Part shown: one piece after another, positions 811-50,499 of the stretch
Layout: every line of letters begins with the position of its first letter
How positions within the stretch are numbered: position 1 is the stretch's first letter
Notes under the pieces: model-generated
The model's database searches: none
The model's input: the letters and a program-made list of their open reading frames with translations, nothing else
Told to the model about the DNA's origin: nothing
Assembly: GCA_022511005.1 (NCBI GenBank)
Contig: JAFLSJ010000001.1
Span: 1 to 64,000, forward strand
Source of the DNA: Ruminococcus sp.
GTDB taxonomy: Bacteria; Bacillota; Clostridia; Oscillospirales; Acutalibacteraceae
Direction of reading: 5' to 3'
Length of the DNA stretch: 64,000 nucleotides
Program-made: the position numbers and the translations under genes

Positions 811-966
811 AAAACATTTCTGCATAATTGTAAGGGCTGATGCCTTCATCAGCCCGTTTATGAAAACTTTTCGGGACGATGTGGGTACGGCAGTCGCCCA
901 AACCCCCTTAATCCCCCTATTAGGGGGCAAAAACATCGTCCCCTACAAACTTTAAGAAATGTTGTG
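811..966. repeat. Composite GTAGGGG-type repeat with nested 52-bp insert
   Basis: The element is framed by AAACATTTC and GAAATGTT in inverted orientation. Inside are hairpin A, GGGCTGATG-CCTT-CATCAGCCC (834-855), and hairpin B, whose arms GGGACGATG (873-881) and CATCGTCCC (934-942) are separated by a 52-nt insert (882-933) instead of the usual 4-nt loop. The element ends CCCCTACAA. The same insert, 49 of 52 positions identical in reverse complement, sits in the other hairpin type at 16808-16859. Confidence 0.85.
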
Positions 967-16731: not shown

Positions 16732-16931
16732 AATATATGTAGGGACAACCCTTGCGGTTGTCCGCAGGGTTATATTAATGTTTTTTACTTAATTGTAGGG
16801 GCTGATGTTTTTGCCCCCTAATAGGGGGATTAAGGGAGTCTGGGCGACTGCCGTACCCTCATCAGCCCATTTTACGTAACTTTTTTGGGACGATGTAGGC
16901 ATCGTCCCCTACATACTTTTGGAAATGTTCT
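16732..16931. repeat. Composite repeats with second copy of the 52-bp insert
   Basis: GTAGGGACAACC-CTTGC-GGTTGTCC (16739-16763) is followed by a full composite element. Its hairpin A arms GGGCTGATG (16799-16807) and CATCAGCCC (16860-16868) are separated by the 52-nt insert (16808-16859). Hairpin B (GGGACGATG-TAGG-CATCGTCCC) is intact. The element ends CCCCTACATACTTTTGGAAATGTTC. The insert is the reverse complement of the one at 882-933 with three differences. Confidence 0.85.
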
Positions 16932-22139: not shown

Positions 22140-22362
22140 CTTTCTGCAAAAGACTGCCTCCCTCTGACGAGGGAGGTGGCAAAGCGAAGCTTTGACGGAG
22201 GGAGAGACGCTGAGAGAATAGAAGTGCAGAATTATATTTATTTTTAAAGAGATAAAATAATAAAAGAATTATATAACATAAAGCGTTCTGCTTATCTCTC
22301 CCTCAGTCAGCTTACGCTGACAGCTCCCTCGTCAGAGGGAGCCTGCAAGTATGCAGAAAATT
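22140..22362. repeat. 225-bp inverted pair of GAGGGAG palindromes
   Basis: The left unit begins TTTCTGCAAAAGACTGCC and carries CCTCCCTC-TGAC-GAGGGAGG, then GGCAAAGC/GCTTTG and GGAGGGAGAGA. The right unit (TCTCTCCCTCAGTCAGC ... CTCCCTC-GTCA-GAGGGAG ... GCAGAAAA) is the same unit reversed. The whole block is thus a large inverted repeat with an AT-rich centre, like a small non-autonomous transposon. The same unit recurs at 34869-34918. Nothing else is seen in the 417-bp gap. Confidence 0.7.
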
Positions 22363-34627: not shown

Positions 34628-34970
34628 ATCGGCTCCCTCGTTAGAGGGAGCTATTTTGTTTGCAAATGCTTTGTTTTAATTAATCTCGTAGGGGTAGTCC
34701 TTGCGGTTGTCCGAAATAAAAGGAATCATTTCTCAGTGTTTGTAGGGGACGATACCTACATCGTCCAAAAAAGGTTACATAAAACGGGCTGATGAAGGCA
34801 TCAGCCCCTACTATTATAAGGAAAACCTTTGAGAAAAAGTTTTGTAAGTTAAGCTTTCCTTTACAATTTCTCTCCCTCAGTCAGCTATCGCTGACAGCTC
34901 CCTCATCAGAGGGAGCCGTTAAATAAAATTAAGTTTGTAGGGGACGATGCCTACATCGTCCCCTTACTTT
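34628..34970. repeat. Array of five GTAGGGG/GAGGGAG palindromes
   Basis: The whole 468-bp gap is palindromes. GGCTCCCTC-GTTA-GAGGGAGC (34631-34651) comes first, then a worn C-type GTAGTCCTTGCGGTTGTCC (34694-34712). Next is an inverted composite with B (GGGGACGAT..ATCGTCC, 34745-34766) then A (GGGCTGATG-AAGG-CATCAGCCCC, 34787-34809). A GAGGGAG unit (34869-34918) and a B palindrome GTAGGGGACGATG-CCTA-CATCGTCCCC (34937-34963) complete it. A -10-like TATAAT at 35029-35034 probably belongs to the ABC operon. Confidence 0.85.
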
Positions 34971-42989: not shown

Positions 42990-43282
42990 ATAAAAAACAC
43001 CCTAAGCCTTATTAAAAGCTTAGGGCGAATTAAATCCGTGGTACCACCTAAATTCAGAAAAATCTGCACTTTACAATACGAGTGTTAGACTTATATTGCG
43101 TCCCCTGTAACGGTGGGCATCCGTTGGAATCTACTGAGATTATTATTAATTAAAAATCTGTTCAGTCCAATGCTCAAGGGCTACTTCCTCCGCCGATTTT
43201 ACGAAGACTTACACCAACCGTCTTCTCTCTTTGCCAAAGCCTGCGGGTACTCCTCCCTGTCAACGCCTGTAACATATTCTTG
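42990..43282 (-). promoter_or_regulatory. T-box riboswitch controlling valS
   Basis: On the minus strand the leader shows an AGAGAG-type loop E after a GGAGGAG-containing stem I, then the T-box core AGGTGGTACCACGGA (43036-43050). The intrinsic terminator follows: CCCTAAGC/GCTTAGGG (43000-43025) and T-run 42991-42997. Uncharged tRNA-Val would stabilise the antiterminator formed by the TGGTACCA region. A GTA triplet in GGAAGTAGCCC (43182-43184) is the likely Val specifier codon, which I infer from position only. All parts are on the valS strand. Confidence 0.92.
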
Positions 43283-50462: not shown

Positions 50463-50499
50463 ATATCCATCTATCAAGTTTTAGTCATCACAAAATAGC

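Follow-up and report, generated by a model that had tools for sequence, protein, structure and literature searches.

PATE-type elements are small and non-coding, with a hairpin near each end and a fixed 5' target motif; they lack terminal inverted repeats and do not duplicate the target. An insertion of the IS200/IS605 type should leave the bases of the target unreplaced. Miniature elements of the PATE type, derived from IS200/IS605, are discussed for Haloquadratum walsbyi (PMC3119063). The insertion sequences known to target REPs include IS1397 and ISPsy8 of the IS3 family and IS621, ISPpu9, ISPpu10 and ISPa11 of the IS110 family (PMC1525189). REPs have also been found within other palindromes, namely T. 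roseum GTAG-23, A. variabilis GTAG-15 and H. neapolitanus CGTC-1 (PMC3733652), and an in-frame REP inside the gene was reported earlier for TnpAREP subclass 2.4 (PMC6006769). Insertion sequences that target REPs, miniature elements of the IS605 type and REPs placed within palindromes or within RAYT genes are each already known singly. The open-access papers searched gave no description of the 48-bp element reported here, nor of a non-coding element with REP tips as its main target.

We analysed a 64,000-nt stretch of a Ruminococcus genome, called the window below, in which a 48-bp block occupies two REP hairpins. The block is probably a real, site-specific insert of hairpin tips, a confidence that covers the element and not the enzyme. 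It resembles PATE-type elements of the IS200/IS605 family in the traits given above; however, no parent or matching TnpA ends were found, one target base is apparently replaced, and hairpin tips are strongly preferred. Like the REP-targeting insertion sequences (PMC1525189), it behaves as a mobile element whose target is a fixed point in a REP palindrome. Those elements are autonomous and carry a transposase, whereas the insert has 48 bp, is non-coding, lacks repeats and occurs in several REP classes and at a few other sites. The host hairpins fit the GTAG-foot REPs of the REP/REPIN and RAYT (TnpAREP) systems (PMC6006769, PMC3116915, PMC8266576), and the RAYT genes here also hold an in-frame REP. 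The insert itself differs from a REP, since it is without a GTAG foot or a REP-like stem and resides inside REPs rather than alone. The nesting of a hairpin in a palindrome is common to the cases of PMC3733652 and to the insert, but there the REP is the inserted part and here it is the host.

Results

The outer hairpins are intergenic, repeated GTAG-foot palindromes of 20-40 bp, in most of which a stem of 9 bp closes a loop of 4 nt, and they agree with published REPs (PMC2817692, PMC3733652, PMC3116915). A pattern search of the window gave 23 matches, 22 of REP type and one, at 50498, of another type; 20 shuffled windows gave none. The window REPs lie in inverted pairs at fixed spacing with the GTAG feet outward, i.e. 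as REPINs, and nine such pairs were counted, including two filled ones. When the source genome was searched for the empty hairpin, 53 matches were obtained, with a loop of 4 nt in 52 and of 5 nt in one; loops of 6-33 nt were absent among them.

The earlier note had described a 52-bp block at 882-933, set between two hairpin arms, and its reverse complement at 16808-16859. Both were confirmed, with 49 of the 52 positions identical, and the inverted-repeat listing of the window joins them as family I3; the arms that bound each block are given in Table 1. Internal segments of the block had no other match in the window, and a chance occurrence is not expected. The block had been said to replace the usual 4-nt loop, which proved wrong, for the loop is kept. 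Empty hairpins of the source genome have the loops CCTA, CCTT, CCCA, CCCT and similar ones, and the first bases of the block, TGGG (copy A), AGGG (copy B) or AAGG, are the reverse complements of loops occurring in empty hairpins. Since these four bases are an ordinary host loop, the insert proper has 48 bp and not 52, with the sequence TACGGCAGTCGCCCA(A/G)AC(C/T)CCCTTAATCCCCCTATTAGGGGGCAAAAA. The opposite orientation of the two window copies, also pointed out in that note, only follows the orientation of their hairpins, and relative to the GTAG foot both run in the same direction.

The source genome has five copies, two in the window and three on other contigs. All five lie in GATG/CATC hairpins and share one direction relative to the GTAG/CTAC foot. 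At the copy B locus the entire REPIN is absent from the nearest relatives, G216 and G008, hence they offer no orthologous empty site. No known RNA family was matched at the insert site.

Table 1. Coordinates of the two filled hairpins and their partners in the window
Feature	Position	Strand	Basis
Insert copy A, 48 bp (TACGGCAGTCGCCCAAACCCCCTTAATCCCCCTATTAGGGGGCAAAAA)	886..933	+	borders set from empty hairpins
Retained 4-nt host-REP loop of copy A, TGGG (CCCA, a common loop of empty hairpins, in reverse complement)	882..885	+	
Host REP 5' arm of copy A, GGGACGATG	873..881	+	sequence and fold
Host REP 3' arm of copy A, CATCGTCCC, with CTAC (GTAG foot on the - strand)	934..946	+	sequence and fold
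Empty partner REP of copy A's inverted pair (GTAAGGGCTGATGCCTTCATCAGCCC)	830..855	+	
Insert copy B, 48 bp	16808..16855	-	
Retained loop of copy B, AGGG on the - strand (the genome also has empty hairpins with CCCT)	16856..16859	-	
GTAG foot and 5' arm of copy B host REP, GGGCTGATG	16795..16807	+	
3' arm of copy B host REP, CATCAGCCC	16860..16868	+	
Empty partner REP of copy B (GTAGGGGACGATGCCTACATCGTCCC)	16887..16912	-	

When 161 genomes of the genus were searched by pattern, 13 proved to have the insert, with an element length of 46-50 nt. About 85,000 species genomes were also scanned; they gave 39 matching stretches, 37 of which belong to MAGs titled uncultured Ruminococcus, Clostridia, Clostridiales or uncultured bacterium. 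The remaining two, one in Thermus and one in Streptomyces (L267, L273), are probably chance matches, and the viral contigs searched had no match. The insert was found only in one group of gut and rumen bacteria.

The counts of junctions and contexts rest on 58 complete, distinct copies. Of these, 55 lie in GTAG-foot hairpins, among which at least four sequence classes can be told apart: CAAGACC-type REPs 28, GATG/CATC hairpins 11, GAG.CCCTTGC-type REPs 11, CTTG/CAAG hairpins 4 and a GGAACGG-type hairpin 1. The other three are at non-REP sites, and the one in G198 would be a small hairpin, GGGCTTGAAAGCCC, if empty. The earlier note had taken GATG/CATC as the target rule and had held that copies lying mostly outside such hairpins would speak against insertion into them. 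The rule fails, as most copies of the sister species lie in other REP hairpins and some in the arm; the majority is indeed outside GATG/CATC across the genus, yet nearly all copies remain in GTAG-foot hairpins. Because these belong to several classes and the insert is at or near the loop in each, the target is the hairpin tip and not GATG/CATC as such.

The non-REP copies are at L054 and L080 (G060:C48, G023:C37) and L105 (G198:C34). A tRNA-like sequence lies just upstream of the G060 copy, and the upstream flank of the G023 copy is similar. A AACAGTCC..GGACTGTT repeat is near the copies of G023 and G198.

At the junctions, GG precedes the insert in 57/58 copies and C follows it in 58/58. Insertions in REPs lie either exactly at the loop edge or no more than about 2 bp from it, and in the G198 hairpin the distance is 3 bp. 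No target duplication or direct repeat was found at the junctions among the complete copies compared. The ends of the insert are asymmetric and have no terminal inverted repeats. The orientation of the insert relative to the GTAG foot varies between hairpin classes, and therefore it is set by the local GG and C, not by the REP. The left end has a hairpin GGC-N(3-4)-GCC and the right end a hairpin CCCCC-N5-GGGGG. Folded alone, the insert is only slightly better than its shuffles (z -1.2 and -1.65). In copy A, an internal ACCC of the insert is paired in the fold with the target GGG and the first T, a predicted pairing that could be the reason for the GG requirement.

An exact 48-bp insertion between GG and C, with all G supplied by the target, was tried as a model and rejected. 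It agrees with the GATG-type, GGAACGG-type and G086 hairpins, but it is contradicted by those of type 2, of G060 and of G051. For type-2 REPs, 90 of 90 empty matches from five species have T directly before CAAGACC, and the filled copies have G there. The empty type-3 REPs have C (15/17) or T (2/17) in G060 and A (5/5) in G051, and the filled ones again have G. Judged from these sequences, one target base seems to be replaced in the two hairpin classes, with a net change from GNC to G[GTACGGC...CAGAAA]C. Alternatively, the filled copies of type 2 and type 3 may have begun from rare G variants; the G variant is common among the empty hairpins of G086.

RAYT-like proteins are present in the sister species, and six aligned members all had NCBIfam NF047646 as their best match, the member displayed falling below the curated cut-off. 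In the four genomes whose RAYT DNA was examined (G042, G060, G023 and G086), the RAYT gene contains an in-frame GTAG-foot hairpin, and in G086 and G060 this hairpin matches the dispersed REPs of the same genome. The RAYT protein of G050 reads as though its internal REP likewise matches the dispersed REPs of its genome. In G087, whose RAYT gene stands beside a glutaminyl-tRNA synthetase-like gene, the insert lies within the internal REP, with CGTAGGGGAGG before and CCCTTGCGGTCTCCC after the 48 bp. The reading frame is unbroken and gains 16 residues; since 48 bp are 16 codons, open in the frame used, the coding REP was entered without breaking the gene. Orthologous RAYT genes with an empty internal REP were found in G086 (GTAGGGGAGGCCCTTGCGGCCTCCC) and G060 (GTAGGGGAGCCCCTTGCGGGCTCCC). 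With several hairpin classes, several species and this filled/empty pair of orthologs, the central proposal of the earlier note, an oriented and site-specific insertion of one element into the hairpins of another repeat, is borne out.

The source genome gave only a RAYT remnant, of which the middle part is missing. This remnant (G000:C42:11493-11799, L314) adjoins a glutaminyl-tRNA synthetase-like gene and keeps its N- and C-terminal parts; the portion absent is the region that holds the internal REP in relatives. The RAYT genes of G042, G060, G023 and G086 (L225, L232, L233, L235, L236) are within conserved neighbourhoods, beside argC-like or glnS-like genes, and have different in-frame REPs at about the same protein position.

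The genome G042 has about 17-20 complete copies and several truncated ones in one common REPIN. All of its filled copies that kept a REP flank belong to REP2. The tip of REP1, GGTCAAGACC, is identical, yet no filled REP1 was seen. Thus, most copies there are a multiplied filled REPIN and not repeated insertions. Furthermore, a filled hairpin of G050 (L229, G050:C91) has unmatched arms, CTTG on the left and CATCCCGCC on the right, and is apparently, from its sequence, a recombinant between two filled REPs. Independent insertions are thus far fewer than copies. From the distinct hairpin classes and the non-REP sites, we estimated a minimum of five or six. One ancestral insertion could be common to several species, and the events may perhaps be only about five or six.

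Discussion

The 48-bp block is probably a non-autonomous mobile element that enters, in one orientation, between GG and C at or very near a hairpin tip, chiefly that of GTAG-foot REPs. The primary insertion would involve single-stranded hairpin DNA and a Y1/HUH nuclease supplied in trans, either IS200/IS605-like or RAYT-like. The filled REPIN may then multiply as a unit, presumably via the REPIN multiplier (RAYT), which would explain the high copy number in some genomes.

Single-strand Y1/HUH chemistry is the leading guess for what moves the insert, and it is held tentatively. The subterminal hairpins and the fixed 5' motif are as in IS200/IS605, and REP tips are natural single-strand targets. 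The absence of terminal inverted repeats and of target duplication is also as in that family and argues against DDE enzymes. Two further traits of the family, unchanged target bases and ends in common with an autonomous TnpA element, were not observed. The single-strand mechanism of RAYT or TnpA type put forward by the earlier note is consistent with the RAYTs and REPs present here, but no enzyme has been tied to the insert and the source genome has only the RAYT remnant. Searches of the 13 positive genomes with the left or the right end alone gave nothing but complete short copies, truncated ones and chance matches, and no autonomous parent element was found. No Y1 match was obtained in G074 and G198, insert-carrying genomes that are 97-98% complete.

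An IS200 TnpA element was rejected as the parent, as the ends at 30 TnpA loci of the genus are unrelated to the insert. The IS200-type TnpA elements of the genus (L180-L203) often adjoin terminator-like hairpins.

Template switching by microhomology at stalled hairpins is the strongest rival, albeit an unlikely one. A nascent strand ending in G would copy the 48 bp from a filled hairpin, rejoin at C and skip one base, with no transposase required. This would account for the G and C at the flanks, for the loss of the tip base N, for the missing target duplication and for the fact that no enzyme was identified. However, the same donor and the same limits would be demanded each time, across several hairpin classes and species, and first jumps into hairpins that have no common arm sequence are hard to square with it.

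It is somewhat less probable that the filled hairpin is a REP variant with a long loop, which originated on one or a few occasions and is spread solely within REPINs, so that no separate 48-bp mobile unit exists. Spread within one REPIN is clear in G042, arms have been exchanged between filled copies (L229), and several species may have one ancestral event in common. Against this stand the unrelated stems that hold the insert, its positions in both loop and arm, its two orientations relative to the GTAG foot and the three non-REP sites.

We give about the same low weight to the insert being a second-order parasite of the RAYT/REP machinery, i.e. a REP-like guide variant whose target has become the hairpin tip, also that of the REP in the RAYT gene. 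Counting the replaced base, the left end of the insert reads GTAC exactly at the hairpin foot, where REPs read GTAG, and in one studied TnpAREP a GTAC variant redirects cleavage to GA and GT (PMC8266576). The junction falls between G and T in type-2 targets and between G and A in type-3 targets of the A type; the targets with G and C or with G and G are at odds with it.

Another recombinase, unrecognised so far (IS110-like or of the tyrosine or serine type) and with REPs as its chance target, is improbable as well: IS3 and IS110 elements with REP targets are documented (PMC1525189) and IS110 is present in G060 and G074, but these are just two of the 13 positive genomes with IS110 (PF01548), ISPpu9 and ISPpu10 leave 2-bp repeats (PMC1525189) while the junctions of the insert have no direct repeat of 2-4 bp as in IS3/IS110-type insertion, and the inverted repeats of a DDE element are absent. 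The IS200, IS110 and DDE models all fit poorly.

Under the preferred reading of a site-specific insert of hairpin tips, the element looks like a miniature parasite whose host, the repeat, is mobile in its own right. Should it be a real mobile unit, it would rank with the smallest known to us, and its specificity would lie almost wholly in DNA shape. The exact borders, the several hairpin targets and the filled/empty RAYT pair together document, in compact natural form, the exchange of strands at hairpin tips. Three layers are nested here: the RAYT gene holds its REP, which in turn holds the insert.

Two other features of the window were observed. A T-box leader (RF00230, E 2.9e-24) lies at 43018-43272 on the - strand. 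Moreover, a second dispersed repeat, TCTCTCCCTCAGTCAGCT..GCTGACAGCTCCCTC..GAGGGAGCC, is present at 22295-22343 and 34869-34917, and its two copies are 94% identical.
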